DNA of 64,000 nt from Acidobacteriota bacterium (GTDB lineage Bacteria; Acidobacteriota; Thermoanaerobaculia; Multivoradales; Multivoraceae): the NCBI GenBank assembly GCA_029263415.1, contig JAJCXN010000008.1:1-64000 (forward strand). Direction: 5' to 3'. How positions within the stretch are numbered: position 1 is the first letter of the stretch; each line of letters starts with the position of its first letter. Of the stretch, positions 42,545 to 52,947 are shown in pieces. Made by a program: the position numbers and the translations under genes. The notes beneath the pieces were generated by a model, which was not told the DNA's origin, searched no databases, and saw only the letters and a program-made list of their open reading frames with translations.

Positions 42545-42614
42545 TGTCTCACCGCTGCCTCACCGCTGTGTTGCTCTCAGATTGGAACCTAGTCGGCATC
42601 TTAGCGTTCCATTA

Positions 42615-42631
42615 TAGTCCGAATCGGACTA
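42615..42631. promoter_or_regulatory. PadR operator candidate between padR and aspartyl protease
   Basis: TAGTCCG-AAT-CGGACTA, perfect 7-bp arms with a 3-bp spacer, within the 125-bp divergent region. It lies about 39 bp before the protease ATG, likely overlapping its promoter. Confidence 0.7.
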
Positions 42632-42669
42632 ACAGAGATCCAGGCACACTATGGCCAAGGAGCACCACC

Positions 42670-44634
42670 ATGCCTCAGACACTCACGCCTCTCTTGCTAG
42701 TAGCGACTCTTCTACTCGCCTCACCTGCGCTTACGCAAGAGTCGGCCCGCCCCAGCCCCACGCTCTCGTGGGCAGGAGAAGAAGTCGAAATCGCGATGCC
42801 GTCCAGCGATGGTCGCTCTCTGGTTGAGGTCTACGTGGGCGACGCTGGCCCTTTCGATTTCCTTATCGATACCGGAGCTTCTGTGAGCGTCTTAGATACC
42901 AGCACCATGGAGCTGCTCAATCTAGAGATCGTTGAGACCACGGAGATCGGAGCGCCCGGCGGGGGCAAGGTACCAACCGACGTTGTCAAGGCCCCACCAA
43001 TCACAGTCGGCGGGCTCACTGTGGCGAATGCACACCCGATCGTCTTGGGGATCTCCAAAATGACCGGCGGAATCATCGAGGGCGTTCTCGGCATGGATCT
43101 CTTCGCGGACGTGGTTCTGGCCCTCGATCCTGCGTCGGCCCGCGCAACAGTGTCCCGCCGAGCCCTGAGCGAAGGCGATCAAGGGGTGATCGCGCTCGAT
43201 ATGAGCGGCGGCCTCCTCAACTTCCCGATCACGGTGGCTGGCCGCACCGTCGTCGCCCACATCGACACCGGCGCACCCGGGGGCATCACGCTGCCGATCG
43301 AACTCATGGATCAACTGCCACTCGTCCCCGGCGCGGGGCAAACAGGGACTGCCAACCTCGTCGGAGGCGGTCGCACGCTCACCATCCGGACCCTCGACGG
43401 CACCGTCCAGATCGGCGATCGCGAGTACCAAAACCCAAAGGTGACCTTCATGGACCCCTCACCTGGCGCCGCCAACCTCGGCGCAGGCCTGATGGCCGAA
43501 TTGGTGCTCACCATCGATCAGCAGAACGGCCTGATGTTCATCGGCCCTTCGCTGCCGGCTGGCAAGGCAGGGCCCTCTAAGGCCAAGACCCCTGGTAGCA
43601 GCTCATGGTTCACTGAATTTTCAGGCGACAGCGTGGTCATACCCTCGACCTTTAATGGCCGCCATACCGTGGTGGAAGCAGAACTCGACGGTGCCGATGC
43701 GTTCAATGCAATCGTAGACACCGGCAGCGGAGTGAACCTGATCGACCCGGCACTCGTCGAAACGATGGGCTTTGAAAAGACGAGCGAGATGACCGTCATG
43801 TCTGGTGGCACCGATCCGATCACGGCGGACATCGTCATCCTTCCGGAGCTTCGAATTGGTGACCTCACCATCCGCAACGCGCCGTTCCTGGCTTTGCAGA
43901 TGCTTGGCGCTGAAAGGGCGATCGTCGGCATGGCCGCCTTCTCTGGCCATCTGCTGACGATTGATGCGGCCAACGACCAAATCATCGTCTCCAAAGGTTC
44001 CCTTGCTGCTAACGACCCGGACGTTGTTTCGTTTACTCAAACACGGTCGATTCAAATCGATGTCGCCGTCAACGGTACCGCCTTTCCAGTCACTCTCGAC
44101 ACAGGATCAAGGCACGGCCTCATCCTTCCCTACAGCATGCGCAGCACGGTAACCCTTGCCGGCGAGCTAGAGAAAATGCCTGACGCGAGACTGATTGGCG
44201 GCACCCGCACGATGTGGAAGGGGAAACTCGACGGCACCCTGAGCATCGCCGGACTGACCTATGAGAACCCGGACGTGCTGTTCATGGATCCGGCTGCATC
44301 GGGCAATATTGGTGGCCAGATCATCCGAGATGCCAAGCTGACCATCGATCAAAACAACGGCCTACTGGCCCTGCGCCCGTACTCGGAGAAGATCCACCGT
44401 CCGGCACCTGTCCAAGTGCGACGTGTGGGTGTCGGGTTCAATCCCGCTGCTGACCAGCCAGCAGTCCGTTCGATCGATCCCGGCTCCAAAGCCGACCTCG
44501 GAGGCCTGCGTGTTGGAGACATCATTTTGTCTTTGAACGGCAAACAAATCTCCGAGCACGGACCAGCCCTTGGTCCCCTCTTTCAGGGAACGACCCCCTG
44601 CTGTTCGAGATCGAACGGGCCACCGAACGCCTGA
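42670..44634 (+). CDS. Exported multi-domain aspartyl (retropepsin-like) protease with PDZ domain, 3' frameshift
   Basis: A protein of 654 residues as written. After a signal peptide (LTPLLLVATLLLASPALT) there are four retropepsin-like repeats, each with an Asp-Thr-Gly motif: FLIDTGASVSVLD (Asp67), AHIDTGAPGG (about 199), AIVDTGSGVNLID (about 351) and VTLDTGSRHGLIL (about 477). A PDZ domain follows (AVRSIDPGSKADLGGLRVGD; IILSLNGKQI). The last residues after LFQG are frameshifted: at GGGAA (44586-44590) one added base gives NDPLLFEIERATERLTIEIQ and a stop at 44651, the expected end of a PDZ domain. AAGGAGCACC precedes ATG 42670. Likely periplasmic or surface peptidase; whether active as intramolecular pairs is inference. 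Confidence 0.85.
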   Translation: MPQTLTPLLLVATLLLASPALTQESARPSPTLSWAGEEVEIAMPSSDGRSLVEVYVGDAGPFDFLIDTGASVSVLDTSTMELLNLEIVETTEIGAPGGGKVPTDVVKAPPITVGGLTVANAHPIVLGISKMTGGIIEGVLGMDLFADVVLALDPASARATVSRRALSEGDQGVIALDMSGGLLNFPITVAGRTVVAHIDTGAPGGITLPIELMDQLPLVPGAGQTGTANLVGGGRTLTIRTLDGTVQIGDREYQNPKVTFMDPSPGAANLGAGLMAELVLTIDQQNGLMFIGPSLPAGKAGPSKAKTPGSSSWFTEFSGDSVVIPSTFNGRHTVVEAELDGADAFNAIVDTGSGVNLIDPALVETMGFEKTSEMTVMSGGTDPITADIVILPELRIGDLTIRNAPFLALQMLGAERAIVGMAAFSGHLLTIDAANDQIIVSKGSLAANDPDVVSFTQTRSIQIDVAVNGTAFPVTLDTGSRHGLILPYSMRSTVTLAGELEKMPDARLIGGTRTMWKGKLDGTLSIAGLTYENPDVLFMDPAASGNIGGQIIRDAKLTIDQNNGLLALRPYSEKIHRPAPVQVRRVGVGFNPAADQPAVRSIDPGSKADLGGLRVGDIILSLNGKQISEHGPALGPLFQGTTPCCSRSNGPPNA

Positions 44635-45814: not shown

Positions 45815-46462
45815 ATGCAGAACTCCCAGATCACGATTCGACCGGCCGGCCCGCTCGACGTCGAAGCTCTCATTCCGCTGGTGCACAGCTCCGGATATTC
45901 TGAGTTCGATTTTGTCTTCGTCGACAGAAAAGAACAGAAAACCGCCGATTTCTTACGGTTCTCTTTGCAGGACGAGCAAGGCGAGCACGGTTGGGGACAC
46001 CATGTCGTGGCGGTTCACGACGACCAAGTCGTTGGTGCCGGCGCTTGCTACGACGGTACCCAGGCTCGTGGTCACACGCTCGATGCGCTGCGCAAGATCT
46101 TCGGCCACTATGGGCTCTGGCGCGGACCAGGAGTGATTCGGCGCGGTTTGCAGATCGAGCGGGTGGTGCGGCCTCCGCGTGGTGATCTGCACTACATTGG
46201 CCACCTCGGTGTAACCAAGGACTGGCGCGGGCGAGGCGTCGGTACTCAACTGGTCGAGTTCCTGCTCAACGAGGGCCGGGCCCGCAAGAGCCCTCGCGCG
46301 GCACTCGACGTTTCGATTGAAAACCCGCAGGCTCAGGCGCTGTACGAACGCCTCGGGTTTGAAGTCACTGGCGAGACCGAAGCCAACCTCAAGTCGGCCT
46401 TTGGTCGCGTGGTAGCGCATCGCCGAATGGAGATCGAACTCTGTGCGCGAGACCACATCTAA
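45815..46462 (+). CDS. GNAT family N-acetyltransferase
   Basis: A 215-residue acetyltransferase. The acetyl-CoA site is visible in YIGHLGVTKDWRGRGVGTQL (Gln/Arg-x-x-Gly-x-Gly/Ala), followed by VEFLLNEGRARKSPRAALDV and the C-terminal NPQAQALYERLGFEVTGETE, classical GNAT motifs A and B. The N-terminal half is longer than in minimal GNATs. Acceptor substrate unknown. The 55-base gap to the sulfatase-like gene allows co-transcription, but the functional link is unclear. Confidence 0.88.
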   Translation: MQNSQITIRPAGPLDVEALIPLVHSSGYSEFDFVFVDRKEQKTADFLRFSLQDEQGEHGWGHHVVAVHDDQVVGAGACYDGTQARGHTLDALRKIFGHYGLWRGPGVIRRGLQIERVVRPPRGDLHYIGHLGVTKDWRGRGVGTQLVEFLLNEGRARKSPRAALDVSIENPQAQALYERLGFEVTGETEANLKSAFGRVVAHRRMEIELCARDHI

Positions 46463-46516: not shown

Positions 46517-49456
46517 ATGACATCTAACCACCTAGAGCGCTCTAGCGATGAAGGCGACGCTCAGACCTCACGGTGGTCTCCGAGCGAGGCGTTGGGATTG
46601 AGTGCAACAGCGAGTCTCGCGATCGCTCAACCCCTCTTTGAGCAACTCACAAGAACACCAGAGTTCTTTGTTGCTCGCGGTGCAGACGTGCAGGATCAGC
46701 TCCTGCTCGTGCTCGTCCTGGGCTTTGCGGTTCCCGCGCTTCTTGCCTTACCGTCAATCGTCACGCGTTGGCTCCGCCCGGCTCTGGGACCGGCTGCCTT
46801 CCAACTCACGACCGCGGTATTAGCGTTCGCTATCGGTCTCAGAATCCATCGCCTCCTGGGCTGGAACGACTGGTTGCTGATTGCCACAGCAGCGATCGCA
46901 GCAGGCGTCTTTGCGCTAGTTAGGCACAGTCGCAACGCAGGCCTCTTTCTTTCCTATCTGGCACCTGCGTTGATTGCCGTGCCCGCCCTCTTCTGGTTTC
47001 ACCCAGACACTGCTCGCGCCCGCGCGTCGGAGACGGGCAATGCGGTTGTTCATGAGACGACGGCCACAGCTCCTATCGTCGTCCTACTCTTTGACGAATG
47101 GTCAGCGACCTCGGTACTTAGCGCAAACGGAGGTATCGACCACCGGCGTTTCCCCAACCTCGCCCGAGTCGCAGGATCCGGTACCTGGTTTAGCAACTTT
47201 TTCTCTTCAACCGGAAGGACGCTCAACGCGATCCCGGCGCTGCTGAGCGGGCAAGACCCTAATGAGGGTTTGCTGCCTACCCTCGCCGACTACCCTGAGA
47301 ATCTCTTCACGCTGGTTGGCGGCAGCTACGACCTGTATGCGACCGAACCCGTCACTCGCCTGTGCCCTGAGTATCTCAACCGAACGACCACCAACCACCA
47401 AGGCCTCCTGGCTCGCTCAAAGCAACTACTCAGCGATCTGCGGTGGATCTGGCTCCACCAAGTGGCACCGGCGTCGATTCGGCAACGGCTCCCTCCGATC
47501 AGCGATCGCTGGAGTGACTTCGGCGACGATCTCGATCAAGACCGCGACATCAACACGTCGGATGATTTTCTGCGCACCGCGATGGCCAATATTAGGTCCG
47601 ATCGCACAGCGCCAGTTGCGAACTTCATAGACCATCTGCAGCAGGTGCGACCTCGATCGCTGCACTTTGGGCATTTCCTGCTTCCGCACCGACCGTGGAA
47701 CCTATTGGCAAACGGACACCGCTACGAAGATGGTGCTCCCGGGCTCCCGGGCTACACAGATACCGGATGGTCGAGCGACAAAGCTGCGGTAGGGCGCTCG
47801 ATCGAGCGCTACTTGGAACAGGTCGCACTGGTCGACAAGATCATCGGTGACGTGGTGGACACCCTCAAAGCAGCAGGCATGTACGACGACACTCTGTTGT
47901 TGATCGCCTCGGATCACGGAGTGACTTTCCAAGAGGGCTTCGAGGTTCGCCAACTCACGCAAACCACTGCCGGCGAACTGCTGGCTTCCCCTCTACTCAT
48001 CAAGCCTCCCGGAGGCCGTGCAGCACGCACCGACGAACGCGTGCTTGCGACTGCTGACTTGCTCCCCCTGCTGGCACAAGAACTGGGTATCGCGATCCCT
48101 TGGCGTAGCGGGGCACCAGACCTTCGCCCGACAAGCCGTTCGACCATCCCGATCGTTAGCGATGGGATTGAAGAAGACGCGATCGACGCTGCCGACATGG
48201 CTGCAGGTCGAGACCGCGCGCGCAACGAGATACTGAATCATGTGCGCGAGACGGCCTATGGCACCGCATTTCAATCGGGACCTCATAGTGATCTAGTCGG
48301 CATCCAAGCGCGTTCCATCACCCAGCGGCCTTCAACGGCATCGGTCATCATCGAGGGTGACGAGCTCTACGGTGACTTCAAGCCAGAACGTCACACCACC
48401 CTCCACTTTGTTCGCGGCTCACTCGAAGGCACGGCATCGCTAGAAGGCCGGATCGACCTAGCGATCACCCTTGGAGGCCAGATCGTCCGTACTGTCACCG
48501 CGACTGGCGAAGGCTCCTTCAATCGTAGCTTCCATACGTTTCTTCCCTACGGCTTCTTGGCCGAAGGCGCCAACGAGCTTGAGGTGTTCGTGATTCACGA
48601 GCGGCCCGACGGCATCGAACTCGAACACGCTCAACGCGAGCGGGCGAATGCAGAGCTTCGGCTCGATGCCGACGGCAGGGTTACAAGCATCTTGTTCGGC
48701 GACCAAGAGCTACCAGTCGATGGTCGCTTTCAAGGCGCGGTCAACGCAACGATCGTCGAGGCCTCGGGCCGCGTCACCGGCTGGGCGTTCTCCCGCATCA
48801 CCCGGCGGCCAGCGGATCGCATCCTTGTGTTCCAGCGCGGAAGACTGCTCACCTCAGTGCACGAAGCGCTCGACCTACCCTGGCTAGTCGCAGCGATGGG
48901 AACTCCGTACCGTGGGGCTGGTTTCCAATCTGACTTCCACGCCAATCTGGTGAGTGAGATCCAGCAAGTCGGGGTTCAGGTCTTCGCGATCTCCGAAGGT
49001 CGCGCGGGCGAGCTACAACCCACCTACCCCTCGGTCGTGGCGAGGTCGGCACTCAGCGAATCGCGTGTCGACGGCACGCCATTCGAATGGCTAGTCGTTG
49101 GCGATGGCAGCCGGATACCGATCGTCGACTCGCGCCTCGAAGCGGGGATCGACCTGGTGCGACGTCGGGATCTTCGCTGGGTGGTGTTTGGCTGGGCCGC
49201 CGACTCTGAAACCAAACGCGGTGCCGAGACGGTCGTGGCGTTCAAGAATGGTCGCTACTTCTCGTCCTTCACGCCCGACGTCGCGCGTCCCAACCTGGCG
49301 ACAAACGGGCTCGTTAGATCTGGGCTCGAAGCATTCGGTTTCAGGGGTTCGATCGCGACCGAAGACTGGCCTGACCCACGCTCCGGCGACTTTGAGTTCA
49401 TCGCTGTCAGTGACGGCATCGCGCAACGAATCCCGATCCCCGAACCCGAGGAGTAG
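46517..49456 (+). CDS. Membrane-anchored sulfatase-like phosphotransferase/hydrolase with duplicated C-terminal domain
   Basis: A 979-residue protein. Residues of about 55-165 hold four or five membrane helices (QLLLVLVLGFAVPALLALPS; LLSYLAPALIA-type). An alkaline-phosphatase-superfamily domain spans about 185-560: VVLLFDEWSATSVLS (metal Asp), SSTGRTLNAIPALLSGQ with Thr at the nucleophile position, HFGHFLLPHRPW and LLLIASDHGVTFQEGF. The nucleophile is Thr, not the Cys/Ser of true sulfatases, so phosphoglycerol- or phosphoethanolamine-type transfer is plausible. The C-terminal 250 residues contain two copies of a beta-rich unit starting VTGWAFSRITRRPADRILVF (about 753) and VVFGWAADSETKRGAETVVA (about 889). 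It is followed by MBOAT and SGNH genes, suggesting envelope glycan or lipid modification. Confidence 0.78.
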   Translation: MTSNHLERSSDEGDAQTSRWSPSEALGLSATASLAIAQPLFEQLTRTPEFFVARGADVQDQLLLVLVLGFAVPALLALPSIVTRWLRPALGPAAFQLTTAVLAFAIGLRIHRLLGWNDWLLIATAAIAAGVFALVRHSRNAGLFLSYLAPALIAVPALFWFHPDTARARASETGNAVVHETTATAPIVVLLFDEWSATSVLSANGGIDHRRFPNLARVAGSGTWFSNFFSSTGRTLNAIPALLSGQDPNEGLLPTLADYPENLFTLVGGSYDLYATEPVTRLCPEYLNRTTTNHQGLLARSKQLLSDLRWIWLHQVAPASIRQRLPPISDRWSDFGDDLDQDRDINTSDDFLRTAMANIRSDRTAPVANFIDHLQQVRPRSLHFGHFLLPHRPWNLLANGHRYEDGAPGLPGYTDTGWSSDKAAVGRSIERYLEQVALVDKIIGDVVDTLKAAGMYDDTLLLIASDHGVTFQEGFEVRQLTQTTAGELLASPLLIKPPGGRAARTDERVLATADLLPLLAQELGIAIPWRSGAPDLRPTSRSTIPIVSDGIEEDAIDAADMAAGRDRARNEILNHVRETAYGTAFQSGPHSDLVGIQARSITQRPSTASVIIEGDELYGDFKPERHTTLHFVRGSLEGTASLEGRIDLAITLGGQIVRTVTATGEGSFNRSFHTFLPYGFLAEGANELEVFVIHERPDGIELEHAQRERANAELRLDADGRVTSILFGDQELPVDGRFQGAVNATIVEASGRVTGWAFSRITRRPADRILVFQRGRLLTSVHEALDLPWLVAAMGTPYRGAGFQSDFHANLVSEIQQVGVQVFAISEGRAGELQPTYPSVVARSALSESRVDGTPFEWLVVGDGSRIPIVDSRLEAGIDLVRRRDLRWVVFGWAADSETKRGAETVVAFKNGRYFSSFTPDVARPNLATNGLVRSGLEAFGFRGSIATEDWPDPRSGDFEFIAVSDGIAQRIPIPEPEE

Positions 49457-49551
49457 GAGACGAGCGAGTCCGGAGAACAGCTCGAGACACCTTTCGCCCA
49501 CTTGGGCCAACCGCTGGCCGATCCGGCTTGACCGCGTTAGATTCCTGACCC

Positions 49552-51009
49552 ATGCTCTTCAACTCCTGGGCCTACCTAGCCTTTCTGCCAGCGGTCTTCG
49601 CGCTCCACTGGCTGGTGCTGCCCCGTCATCGCCCGCCGGTGTTGCTCCTCGCGAGCGCCGTCTTCTACGGCCTCTGGGATGCACGCTTTCTGGGGCTTAT
49701 GGGCCTCTCGATCTTGGTCGACTATGTCGCGGCTCGGCGCATGGGCGACGCAGGGCTGGCCGTCACCGACCAAGCGCGCCGTCGATGGTTGCTGCTCAGT
49801 GTCGCCACCAACCTTGGCATCTTAGGGGTGTTCAAGTACTTCGACTTCTTCTCCTTGAGCCTTTCGCGACTACTTCACACCGCAGGTCTTGATCGCTTCG
49901 CGGACGACCCACTGCTGCTAAACGTGGTCTTGCCAGTGGGCGTTTCGTTCTACACGTTTCAGTCGATGGCCTACACGATCGATGTCTACAGGCGAAAGAT
50001 TGCAAGCACGCGCAATCTCCTGCACTTCGCTCTTTACGTCAGTTTCTTCCCGCAGCTGGTGGCCGGCCCGATCGAACGGGCCAAGACCCTGCTGCCGCAA
50101 CTCATCGCCACTCGACGCTTGCGCGACGTGCGCTGGCGAGCTGCCTGGTGGCTCCTGGCCTGGGGCCTGTTTAAGAAACTGGTGATCGCCGACAACCTGA
50201 GTCCACTGGTGGGGCGCTGTCTCGATACCGACTCGGTCACCGGGCCCACACTCTTCGTTGGTCTACTACTGTTCGCATTCCAGATACTGTGCGACTTCTC
50301 AGGCTACACGGACCTTGCTCGGGGCTCGGCGCTGCTGTTTGGAATTGAGTTGCGACCCAACTTCAAACTCCCCTACTTTGCAGTATCGCCTTCGGACTTC
50401 TGGCGCCGCTGGCACATCTCGCTCTCGTCTTGGCTTCGCGACTACCTCTACATTTCCTTGGGGGGCAACCGAGGTAGTCAGTGGCAGACCAAGCGCAACC
50501 TCTTACTGACCATGCTGCTAGGCGGACTCTGGCACGGGGCAGCGTGGAATTTTGTTTTGTGGGGCGCCTACCATGGACTCTTGCTGGTGCTATATCAAGC
50601 GGCCGAGAGAACCCGAGTCTGGTCCGCGGGCGGCGGTCTAGGCACAGTCTTTCGGAGTGCAGGCTTCTTCCTGCTGACCCTGATCGGATGGGGCTTCTTT
50701 CGGGCGCAGCAGCCAGGACAACTGACCCGGTTCAGCCACGGTCTCCTCGATTGGACGATCACGGACCCACAGCTCCTCGTGGACTCCCTGCGTGATTTCG
50801 GATTCTTGGTTGCACCTCTGCTTCTGGTCATGGCGATCGAGAAGAGGCGCGAGTTCCCTGCCAACGAGAGCAGGTCGGCCGACAAGAATCGAGAGTTCGG
50901 TGAGAGCCTCCATCCCTTCGGCCTCGCCTCTGTTGTCCTGTTTCTGCTTGGCGCAGTAGCGATCTGGGGCGCCACCGGCGGCACCGAGTTCCTCTACTTT
51001 CAGTTCTAA
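49552..51009 (+). CDS. MBOAT family O-acyltransferase (AlgI/DltB-like)
   Basis: A 485-residue polytopic protein. It opens MLFNSWAYLAFLPAVFALHW, typical of AlgI, and contains LPVGVSFYTFQSMAYTIDVY, VSFFPQLVAGPIERAKTLLP, PSDFWRRWHISLSSWLRDYL, YISLGGNRG and the catalytic His near 328 in LLGGLWHGAAWNFVLWG. These enzymes pass acyl groups across the membrane to an extracellular polymer. The stop overlaps the start of the SGNH gene (TAATG), indicating a translationally coupled pair like AlgI-AlgJ/X or DltB-DltD. Acceptor polymer unknown. Confidence 0.92.
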   Translation: MLFNSWAYLAFLPAVFALHWLVLPRHRPPVLLLASAVFYGLWDARFLGLMGLSILVDYVAARRMGDAGLAVTDQARRRWLLLSVATNLGILGVFKYFDFFSLSLSRLLHTAGLDRFADDPLLLNVVLPVGVSFYTFQSMAYTIDVYRRKIASTRNLLHFALYVSFFPQLVAGPIERAKTLLPQLIATRRLRDVRWRAAWWLLAWGLFKKLVIADNLSPLVGRCLDTDSVTGPTLFVGLLLFAFQILCDFSGYTDLARGSALLFGIELRPNFKLPYFAVSPSDFWRRWHISLSSWLRDYLYISLGGNRGSQWQTKRNLLLTMLLGGLWHGAAWNFVLWGAYHGLLLVLYQAAERTRVWSAGGGLGTVFRSAGFFLLTLIGWGFFRAQQPGQLTRFSHGLLDWTITDPQLLVDSLRDFGFLVAPLLLVMAIEKRREFPANESRSADKNREFGESLHPFGLASVVLFLLGAVAIWGATGGTEFLYFQF

Positions 51010-52091
51010 TGAGATCTACACCTTTGAGCATCTGGAGATTCGGACGAAGCCTATTGGCCGCTCTGGTCGCGATCTTGATAGCAGGCGCTGCTCTGGAACT
51101 CTCGGTGCGCATAGCGAAGAGCATTGGGTTCGCCCAGGCAGTGCATGTCACCAACGAACCGCGCGACGCTCGACCGGTCGACGGCCTGTTCGCCGAGGAA
51201 CGATCGAGCTTTCGCATCCTGGTACTCGGAGACTCGATGGCCTATTCACCCGGCCTACCGGCCTCGGCCGTGTGGAGCACCGCGCTCGAAAAGGCACTTG
51301 AAGACACGTTGGACCGGAGTGTCGAGATCGTGAACGCCGCCCGGGGTGGCGACAACACCTTCAGCCAACTGCGCTTCCTCGAGTCCTCCTTGAAGGAGCA
51401 CGCTGGAGCACCCAGCAACGCCGCCGATCTGGTACTGCTGCTCTACAACCACAACGACGTCTACGGTACCCGCAGCTCGCCATCCACCGTAGTTTCTGAA
51501 CAGCCAGTGGCTAGACCGGCTCCGCAACCCAAGTCAAGTGTGCCTGTTCGTCCGGAAAGAGCTGCCCTAGTTGCCCGTATTGCTCGAACATTGCGGAGGA
51601 ACTCCAAGTTCGGCGAGTTGCTGCTCACCCGACTAGGAAACCAATCGCGAGCCTGGGGATACCTCGTGCCCGGCACCGAGTTCCATCACCTTGCCAGCGT
51701 GGCCTACGGGCCGGACTCGGCCGGGTGGCGTGCGGCCAGAACGGAACTCCAGGCCATCAACGACATCGTCCGGGCAAACGGAGCGCGGTTAGGCGTTTTC
51801 GTTCTGCCACAATTCGCTTCTCTCCAGCATGACTTCTTCGCCCAAGCCCGAGCCGAGATTGAAGCCGTTGCCTCCGGGCTTGGAGTCCCAGTCGGTTTCG
51901 GCTACCCGGAGTTCAGGGGCCGGCCCTGGCAGGAACTGGCCATGTCTCCGTTTGATGGGCATCCCAACGCCCAAGCCAACCAGGAGATCGCCATCGTTGT
52001 GCAGGAATGGTTACAGCGGACTCAGCTTCTGAAGCGTCGCAACCCGCGCAACGAACAGCAACCGAACGACACTTCAACGAGCGGCGACTAG
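51009..52091 (+). CDS. Membrane-anchored SGNH/GDSL-type hydrolase (AlgJ/DltD-like partner)
   Basis: A 360-residue protein with an N-terminal anchor (RFGRSLLAALVAILIAGAAL) and an SGNH fold. Block I is RILVLGDSMAYSPGLPASAV (Ser about 75), block II-like ARGGDNTFSQLRFLES, and the final block LAMSPFDGHPNAQANQEIA supplies the Asp-x-x-His dyad (about 315). It overlaps the MBOAT gene by one base and should act with it in acylating an extracellular polymer. A central Pro/Ser-rich loop (about 155-185) varies from family norms. Confidence 0.85.
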   Translation: MRSTPLSIWRFGRSLLAALVAILIAGAALELSVRIAKSIGFAQAVHVTNEPRDARPVDGLFAEERSSFRILVLGDSMAYSPGLPASAVWSTALEKALEDTLDRSVEIVNAARGGDNTFSQLRFLESSLKEHAGAPSNAADLVLLLYNHNDVYGTRSSPSTVVSEQPVARPAPQPKSSVPVRPERAALVARIARTLRRNSKFGELLLTRLGNQSRAWGYLVPGTEFHHLASVAYGPDSAGWRAARTELQAINDIVRANGARLGVFVLPQFASLQHDFFAQARAEIEAVASGLGVPVGFGYPEFRGRPWQELAMSPFDGHPNAQANQEIAIVVQEWLQRTQLLKRRNPRNEQQPNDTSTSGD

Positions 52092-52179: not shown

Positions 52180-52947
52180 ATGGAACTGCAAGGCAGAGTG
52201 GCCGTCATCACTGGCGGCAGCGGTGGCATCGGCAAAGCAATGGGTAAGGCGTTCCTGGCGGAAGGGGCGACCGCGGTCATCCTCGCCGATGTCTCTGCCG
52301 AGGCGGTAGCAGCCGCAGCCCAAGAAATCGGATGTGAGAGCGCTGTTTGCAACGTCACCGACGAGGCGCAGATTCAACAACTGGTCGACCGCACCATTGA
52401 GCGTCACGGCAAGATCGACCTCTTCTGCTCAAACGCGGGCGCGGGTGGACCAGGCGTTCTCACCGATGCCGGCAACGAGGTGTGGCAAGAGCAGTGGGAG
52501 TTGAACGTCATGTCCCACCTCTACGCTGCCCGGGCGGTTCTACCAGCGATGATCGAGCGGGGCGAAGGCTACCTACTCAACACGGCCTCTGCTGCTGGCC
52601 TGCTCGCCGCTCTAGGCACGGGGCCCTACACTGTGACCAAGGCGGCTGCGGTGAAGCTTGCCGAGTTCATCAGCATCACTCACGGAGACGACGGCATTGG
52701 CGTCTCGGTGCTCTGCCCACAAGGGGTCAACACCGCGATGGCGCCACGGCGATTGGGCGACGGCCAAACGGATGGCATCATCGAACCAGAGCAACTCGCT
52801 GAAACGGTGGTCGAAGCGCTCCGCGAGCAGCGTTTTCACGTGCTGCCTCATCCTGAAGTCGAGGAGTATGTGCGGCGCAAGGGCGACGACATCGAGCGCT
52901 GGCTTGGTGGCATGCGCCGCTTGCGTCGCAAGTCGCTGTCGATCTAA
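52180..52947 (+). CDS. Short-chain dehydrogenase/reductase
   Basis: A 255-residue classical SDR. Cofactor motif TGGSGGIG (11-18), SNAGAGG (84-90), catalytic Ser137 and the Tyr150-x-x-x-Lys154 pair in GPYTVTKAAAVKLAEF. The acidic residue after strand 2 (LADVS) suggests NAD rather than NADP. Substrate not predictable. The start at 52180 follows AAGGAACAGCACT. It lies 88 bp after the SGNH gene, possibly unrelated to it. Confidence 0.9.
   Translation: MELQGRVAVITGGSGGIGKAMGKAFLAEGATAVILADVSAEAVAAAAQEIGCESAVCNVTDEAQIQQLVDRTIERHGKIDLFCSNAGAGGPGVLTDAGNEVWQEQWELNVMSHLYAARAVLPAMIERGEGYLLNTASAAGLLAALGTGPYTVTKAAAVKLAEFISITHGDDGIGVSVLCPQGVNTAMAPRRLGDGQTDGIIEPEQLAETVVEALREQRFHVLPHPEVEEYVRRKGDDIERWLGGMRRLRRKSLSI

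Follow-up and report, generated by a model that had tools for sequence, protein, structure and literature searches.

An alkaline phosphatase superfamily membrane protein family that tracks a NoeA-like kinase-methyltransferase, and its MBOAT-SGNH neighbours in an Acidobacteriota genome

P0001 is a 979-residue membrane protein of the alkaline phosphatase (AP) superfamily, encoded at positions 46517-49456 of a 64,000-nucleotide stretch of DNA (hereafter the window) that opens contig JAJCXN010000008.1 of an Acidobacteriota bacterium (assembly GCA_029263415.1). Its gene is followed by those of an MBOAT O-acyltransferase (P0002) and of an SGNH protein (P0003), and an earlier note on this stretch had taken the three for a conserved envelope-modifying cluster. 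The partner has to be corrected: the family of P0001, an AP-superfamily enzyme family spread across several phyla, tracks a NoeA-like kinase-methyltransferase and not the MBOAT-SGNH pair, which is an ordinary one. The locus probably consists of two modules lying side by side, a reading to which we give a probability of roughly 0.6. P0001 would be an outward-facing phosphotransferase or phosphodiesterase with a Thr nucleophile, working with the NoeA-like protein on a surface glycan, and the acyl pair would be separate from it.

The NoeA-like partner

Clustering of the neighbours of P0001-family genes brings out one recurrent family, a protein of about 470 residues with a kinase-like and a methyltransferase part. 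The 77 named loci surveyed come from the best 80 of 122 matches, several from one genome and many cut by contig ends, and up to 10 kb was fetched on each side of the P0001-like match. A profile search over all frames finds the NoeA-like protein in 26 of these 77 loci, at most 1 kb from the P0001-like match in 25 of them and at 1081 bases in the exception (L107). A coarser first clustering had given 18 of 77, an undercount because open reading frames (ORFs) called as the longest frame include some wrong frames and miss some real genes. According to the record titles, hosts of the two genes include Actinomycetota, Gammaproteobacteria, Planctomycetes, Elusimicrobia, Vampirovibrio and Acidobacteriota. 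Isolate names suggest that the relatives nearest to the window genome live with sponges or corals.

The N-terminal half of the NoeA-like protein carries D-x4-N and a later D, read as kinase catalytic loops (D122, N127 and D139, invariant in 16 of 16 sequences), and its C-terminal half gives weak Pfam methyltransferase matches. Sinorhizobium meliloti noeA is 36% identical over 98% of a member of the family, and noeB, which adjoins noeA in S. meliloti, itself encodes a PF00884 protein. The description of NoeA and NoeB as host-range genes goes back to 1995 (cited in PMC9758233), and they have, to our knowledge, no established chemistry. A free-living relative with adjacent NoeA-like and AP genes would make their function directly testable. 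On plasmid pSINAC01 of Singulisphaera acidiphila (L183), a NoeA-like gene is followed by that of an 'LTA synthase family' protein, forming a compact natural two-gene module. A record titled Bifidobacterium breve (L119, CAMDLG010000076.1), perhaps a mislabelled bin, holds a NoeA-like/P0001-like pair as in actinobacterial metagenome-assembled genomes. P0001 itself gave only four weak partial matches among 72,556 plasmid records.

The association also holds across the class. Among 148 genomes surveyed, 49 carry the P0001 family (cut-off E 1e-25) and 51 the NoeA-like gene, and 44 carry both where 16.9 would be expected (p 1.7e-24, uncorrected for kinship). Counted by genus, all 19 genera with P0001 hold a NoeA-like gene (p 9e-13), although in g43 it comes from another genome than the P0001-family gene. 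When g2, an over-sampled genus, is set aside, the two occur together in 24 genomes against 6.8 expected. The genes lie at most 1 kb apart in 12 of the 44 genomes with both, as read by hand.

Several observations weigh against a working partnership of the two proteins. The NoeA-like gene of the window genome (G000) lies on another contig (C44, with P0001 on C8), adjoins none of the four P0001-family genes of this genome and has no AP-family frame among the ORFs called in the 18 kb around it. Five of the 49 P0001-positive genomes give no NoeA-like match (G015, G025, G084, G092 and G094), seven genomes hold a NoeA-like gene without the P0001 type, and no NoeA-like gene is seen at 51 of the 77 named loci, many of which are cut by contig ends. 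Relatedness among the genomes exaggerates the significance calculated at genome level, and the counts are set by the cut-offs of E 1e-25 and 1e-20. At the level of sequence, NoeB reaches only 15 bits against the P0001 profile, below LapC (25 bits) and below every one of eight PF00884 proteins from the window genome (20-74 bits), and single-sequence comparisons with P0001 give hhalign probabilities of 3.5% for OpgB, 3.0% for EptA and 81% for LapC.

Six of the seven genomes without P0001 were inspected at the NoeA-like place, G093 being left out. In four (G120, G142, G144 and G146), an AP-type frame related to P0001 more distantly stands beside it, and no such frame is seen there in G143 and G113. 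The AP proteins of G144 and G146 are NoeB-like (phmmer 5e-35 and 3e-40). It seems that NoeA-like proteins are partnered by more than one AP subfamily. The finding extends a known kind, NoeA-like genes with AP-fold neighbours having been noted in 2022: that paper describes NoeA-like kinase-methyltransferases with conserved neighbours, including an AP-fold NoeB-like protein in 38% of 816 neighbourhoods (PMC9758233). A search of a single open library for literature on a kinase-methyltransferase with the alkaline phosphatase superfamily found none.

Fold and active site of P0001

Pfam places P0001 in Sulfatase (PF00884, 6.4e-20), with the match split into two stretches. The protein was modelled with AlphaFold2 from a 68-sequence alignment, at a mean predicted local distance difference test score (pLDDT) of 85.5 and a predicted template modelling score (pTM) of 0.81. 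Five long helices of the model, within residues 22-170 (46580-47026; this and all further features of the three genes lie on the plus strand), are predicted from their hydrophobic sequence to span the membrane. They are followed by the catalytic domain (residues 184-570, 47066-48226), which as modelled has the core fold of the alkaline phosphatase superfamily. Its closest folds by VIA-align are S1 sulfatases, the best being 7oz8 (Z 27.7, root-mean-square deviation 3.0, 300 residues aligned), then the phosphonate monoester hydrolase 4uph (Z 26.9, 3.3, 308 aligned) and the Escherichia coli AP domain 5i5h (Z 24.9, 2.9, 268 aligned), with 6vc7 alike; 5i5h is taken as the periplasmic domain of LapC/YejM from its neighbours in the match list.

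The predicted nucleophile is Thr235 (47219-47221), in a column that holds Thr in 52, Ser in 16 and Cys in none of the 68 aligned family members. The residue four positions further is V, I, L or T, and Arg in none of the 68. Asp193, Glu194, His386, His391, Asp440 and Asp466 are invariant in the same alignment, and His467 is present in 66 of 68. The putative nucleophile and metal-ligand residues of the superfamily (Thr235, Asp193, Asp466 and His467) are thereby retained in P0001, and the picture of a membrane protein with an AP-superfamily domain and Thr at the nucleophile position, drawn in the earlier note, stands.

The signature of S1 sulfatases is Cys or Ser in C/S-x-P/A-x-R. That P0001 could be a genuine sulfatase, or a different enzyme that hydrolyses sulfate esters, is suggested by its closest folds and by the 45 PF00884 matches in the window genome. 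Against this, Thr235 aligns with the Cys of five Cys-type sulfatases of the same genome, which show CxPSR there and D-N-G where P0001 has D-H-G, with Asn in place of His467, and the signature is absent from the P0001 family. Because the column is Thr/Ser and no Arg follows at +4, formylglycine chemistry is not expected. An active-site Cys or Ser with sulfatase chemistry in orthologues had been named beforehand as evidence that would speak against a phosphoglycerol-like transfer. What is found is no Cys in the 68 members and Ser rows that lack the Arg at +4. Sulfatase chemistry is rejected on these active-site columns, and we give the sulfatase alternative hardly any credence.

A tree points the same way, as it splits the P0001 family and the NoeA-partnered AP proteins from the eight own-genome PF00884 proteins, LapC, EptA and OpgB. 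These eight, five of Cys type and three of Thr type, were taken as sulfatases. The support for the split (94/87) is just under the starred level and long branches meet (EptA, LapC, OpgB, the LTA-synthase-like protein of Singulisphaera and Smac51), so that it is only suggestive. The P0001 family forms its own clade with a support of 100/99. An orthology of P0001 with NoeB is rejected on the 15-bit score and the separate clades, although their active-site residues agree. Indeed, at the eight positions compared, which read D-E, T, H, H and D-H-G in P0001, NoeB of S. meliloti is identical at 8/8, Glu194 included. The phosphoethanolamine transferase EptA agrees with P0001 at T, H, H and D-H-G, and the Thr of EptA and that of OpgB both align with Thr235.

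P0001 might also be a sensor or scaffold in the manner of LapC/YejM, which controls LPS synthesis through partners of its own; it would then keep the fold and have no catalysis. The combination of a helical membrane part with an AP domain, the YejM-type fold match (Z 24.9) and the hhalign probability of 81% would fit such a role, whereas the nucleophile and metal residues are conserved in the P0001 family and LapC itself shows G-R-G at the aligned D-H-G, with both His lost. We regard a non-catalytic P0001 as improbable.

The PF00884 matches of the window genome (6.9 Mb) include some that are split over one gene, and the eight inspected comprise five with the Cys signature and three with Thr. 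A P0001-like frame of another genome (G043:C32:136891-139314) is reported with one TAA stop within the match.

The acyltransferase pair and the question of a cluster

P0002 (49552-51009, 485 residues, PF03062 at 3.4e-28) starts 95 nucleotides after the stop of P0001 on the same strand, and its own stop shares a TAATG overlap with the start of P0003 (51009-52091, 360 residues, Lipase_GDSL_2, PF13472, at 2.9e-10), an acyltransferase- or esterase-like partner. These three frames lie where they had been placed. The tail of P0002, FLYFQF at residues 480-485 (50989-51006), fits the acyl-shuttle motif FXYXXF, and the pattern F-[IL]-Y-[FY]-x-F closes all 33 MBOAT frames compared, a set that contains P0002 and some duplicates. 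The GDS motif of P0003 is at 74 and its DGHPN motif at 316. PatA auto-acetylates the Tyr of its C-terminal FXYXXF and passes the acyl group to PatB, and the same source argues for a like relay in other MBOAT-SGNH pairs (PMC12148441). From their motifs and families, P0002 and P0003 are a standard MBOAT-SGNH acyltransferase pair, for which acyl transfer to a polymer is predicted. This part of the earlier note, which had read the overlapping genes as a standard acyl-transfer unit, is borne out by Pfam, the overlap, the tail and the GDS motif.

The pair is rare, homologues of P0003 at E 1e-10 being found in five of the 148 class genomes and close ones in the window genome and G003 only. The window genome has one further MBOAT besides P0002. 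The close P0003 homologue of G003 adjoins its MBOAT, and the contig ends 97 bases upstream of this MBOAT, so that the closest relative of the pair cannot decide whether the three genes belong together.

Conservation of the cluster finds little support elsewhere. Within the sequence fetched, only one of the 77 named loci (L132) shows an MBOAT gene; it runs divergently to the P0001-like gene, and an AlgX-type SGNH gene comes after it. Across the class, MBOAT (cut-off E 1e-20) is present in 60 genomes, 19 of which also have the P0001 family where chance gives 19.9 (p 0.86); with g2 (21 genomes) removed, the figure is 19 against 13.2 (p 0.018), a mild excess. P0001-family and MBOAT genes lie at most 1 kb apart in 2 of the 19 genomes with both, the window genome and G094, where 0.027 pairs would be expected. 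Judged by contig coordinates, L132 apparently comes from the G094 genome. Since the window pair itself prompted the test, a single independent adjacent pair counts, for which the chance of at least one is 0.026. The adjacency of P0001 and MBOAT is rarer than a functional trio predicts, yet more than nothing. A gene order that is not conserved had been named beforehand as evidence against the cluster, and this is what the loci show. The claim of a conserved three-gene cluster is rejected on both gene order and co-occurrence, which stands at chance overall. No literature on MBOAT with SGNH and sulfatase, or on MBOAT with phosphoglycerol transferase, was found in the single open library searched.

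It is nonetheless conceivable that P0001, the MBOAT and the SGNH protein act in this genome as one functional unit, adding a phospho-alcohol and an acyl group to the same surface polymer. The common strand and short gap would suit such a unit, as would the two adjacent pairs of the class and the mild excess outside g2. No terminator-like site was found between the genes. This says little, as the scan of the locus placed a single terminator-like site, within the MBOAT gene, and no promoter-like one, while shuffled sequences gave more of both. Acetyltransferases also accompany NoeA and NoeB: NodL does so in the nodL-noeA-noeB module of S. meliloti, and an O-acetyltransferase is described in NoeA-like operons, for instance in Legionella (PMC9758233). 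However, the sequence fetched for 76 of the 77 loci gives no MBOAT match, overall co-occurrence does not exceed chance, the single independent adjacent case is divergent with another SGNH type, and G003 brings no decision. A three-gene unit is doubtful, and just as doubtful is the narrower idea that P0001 and the acyl pair share a glycan target. The preferred reading remains that of two neighbouring modules.

The genes around the three add no glycan-synthesis family, either in the flanking ones, a GNAT acetyltransferase (45815-46462) before and a short-chain dehydrogenase (SDR, 52180-52947) after by Pfam, or in ten further ORFs tested between 30.8 and 62.5 kb at E 1e-4. The statement that no glycan polymerase is nearby thus agrees with the genes covered. 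Seven of the ten ORFs encode a Ser/Thr kinase with TPR, a thioredoxin-like protein, DUF4920, an aspartyl-protease/PDZ protein, a monomeric isocitrate dehydrogenase, an M56 peptidase and a PQQ protein, and three have no family at this threshold. A single protein at 42568-44634 combines four aspartyl-protease-type stretches with a PDZ domain.

The beta domains, a proposed mechanism and known systems

P0001 ends with three beta domains. The first (residues 619-719, 48371-48673) is found in most aligned family members and shows no detectable relation to either of the other two, which are copies of one domain, named here after its GWA motif. Copy 1 (residues 720-839, 48674-49033) and copy 2 (residues 855-979, 49079-49453) align by hhalign with a probability of 99.2 (E 2.7e-19), with the motif at residues 755 and 892, so that the duplication reported earlier at about 753 and 889 is confirmed. 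From the P0001 sequence alone, the repeat scores 58 against a shuffle maximum of 57, and none of 1000 shuffles reaches its score. The structure search proposed for these repeats was run on a C-terminal model (pLDDT 82.0), in which copy 2 is an Ig-like beta sandwich. It returned the Ig-like sandwich class and no specific relative, the best match (Z 7.8) lying within the stated background. A new fold for the GWA domain is not shown by matches at this level (Z at most 7.8). A sequence search of the PDB with the C-terminal domain gave no match up to E 1.

A first lead to this domain, which had not been recognised, comes from its duplication on AftB-like membrane proteins. Several relatives in genus g2 carry P0001-like genes near a gene that we take to be ispG, with membrane proteins of about 810 residues, the P0001-like genes being in tandem in two of the loci shown. 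These membrane proteins have no Pfam family. The GWA duplication is found in eight of their frames (E 1.9e-53 to 7.4e-60, L058 and L071 being the same gene), and a profile built from them matches AftB, an arabinosyltransferase, among PDB sequences (5.8e-8, residues 52-251). Because a GWA domain is common to a glycosyltransferase-like protein and to the AP enzyme of one array, a common glycan or a complex of the two is suggested. P0001-like genes beside AftB-like proteins, some in tandem, are seen at L057:3387-18307 and likewise in L071, L072, L074, L075, L077 and L080. The window genome holds a membrane-protein frame with a GWA domain (L210, G000:C3:121185-121439), a distant relative without Pfam family.

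If P0001 works with the NoeA-like protein as proposed, its five predicted helices would anchor it with the catalytic domain outside the cytoplasm. The attack on a phosphodiester would come from Thr235, Asp193, Asp466 and His467 would hold the metals, and the phospho-group would be passed to a glycan or to water. The GWA domains may hold the glycan or dock enzymes. WbdD phosphorylates and methylates a saccharide; by analogy, the cytosolic NoeA-like protein, with its kinase-like domain joined to a methyltransferase, may phosphorylate and methylate a saccharide precursor, and in the window genome its gene lies on another contig. PMC9758233 compares WbdD with another Legionella kinase-methyltransferase and describes the two families as remotely related and clearly different. 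In the module of P0002 and P0003, the acyl group would go from acyl-CoA to the Tyr in the tail of the MBOAT, on to the Ser of the SGNH protein and finally to a surface polymer.

A broader scheme can be entertained tentatively. In a widespread system that decorates surface glycans with phosphate, the cytosolic NoeA-like protein would make a saccharide marked with phosphate or methylphosphate, and one to several P0001-type Thr enzymes facing outward would transfer or trim it. The duplicated GWA domain would be a docking module shared with AftB-like glycosyltransferases, and an acyltransferase would mark the same glycan in some species, such as this one and, by analogy, that with nodL-noeA-noeB.

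Known systems resemble parts of this locus. S1 sulfatases and phosphonate monoester hydrolases share the catalytic fold, with 14-21% identity over about 300 residues, whereas P0001 has no formylglycine signature and is predicted to be membrane-anchored. The phosphotransferases LtaS, OpgB and EptA share with P0001 the AP fold, a membrane anchor (predicted for P0001) and the Thr nucleophile position. LtaS, which has Thr at the position equivalent to Thr235, is met only as weak sequence matches to P0001, and for OpgB and EptA the hhalign probability with P0001, from single sequences, is just 3-4%. LapC/YejM/PbgA combine, as P0001 does, a helical membrane part with an AP-fold periplasmic domain, but in P0001 the residues for metal binding and for the nucleophile are retained, and there are additional beta domains. 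P0002 and P0003 resemble the MBOAT-SGNH pairs of PatA/PatB type in their overlapping genes, FXYXXF tail and GDS and DxxH motifs. NoeB, with 553 residues, differs from the 979-residue P0001 and its three beta domains, and P0001 is not adjacent to a NoeA-like gene here; yet the NoeA/NoeB module is alike in pairing an AP protein that has the same eight active-site residues with a NoeA homologue, with which P0001-type proteins co-occur and to which they are often adjacent in relatives.

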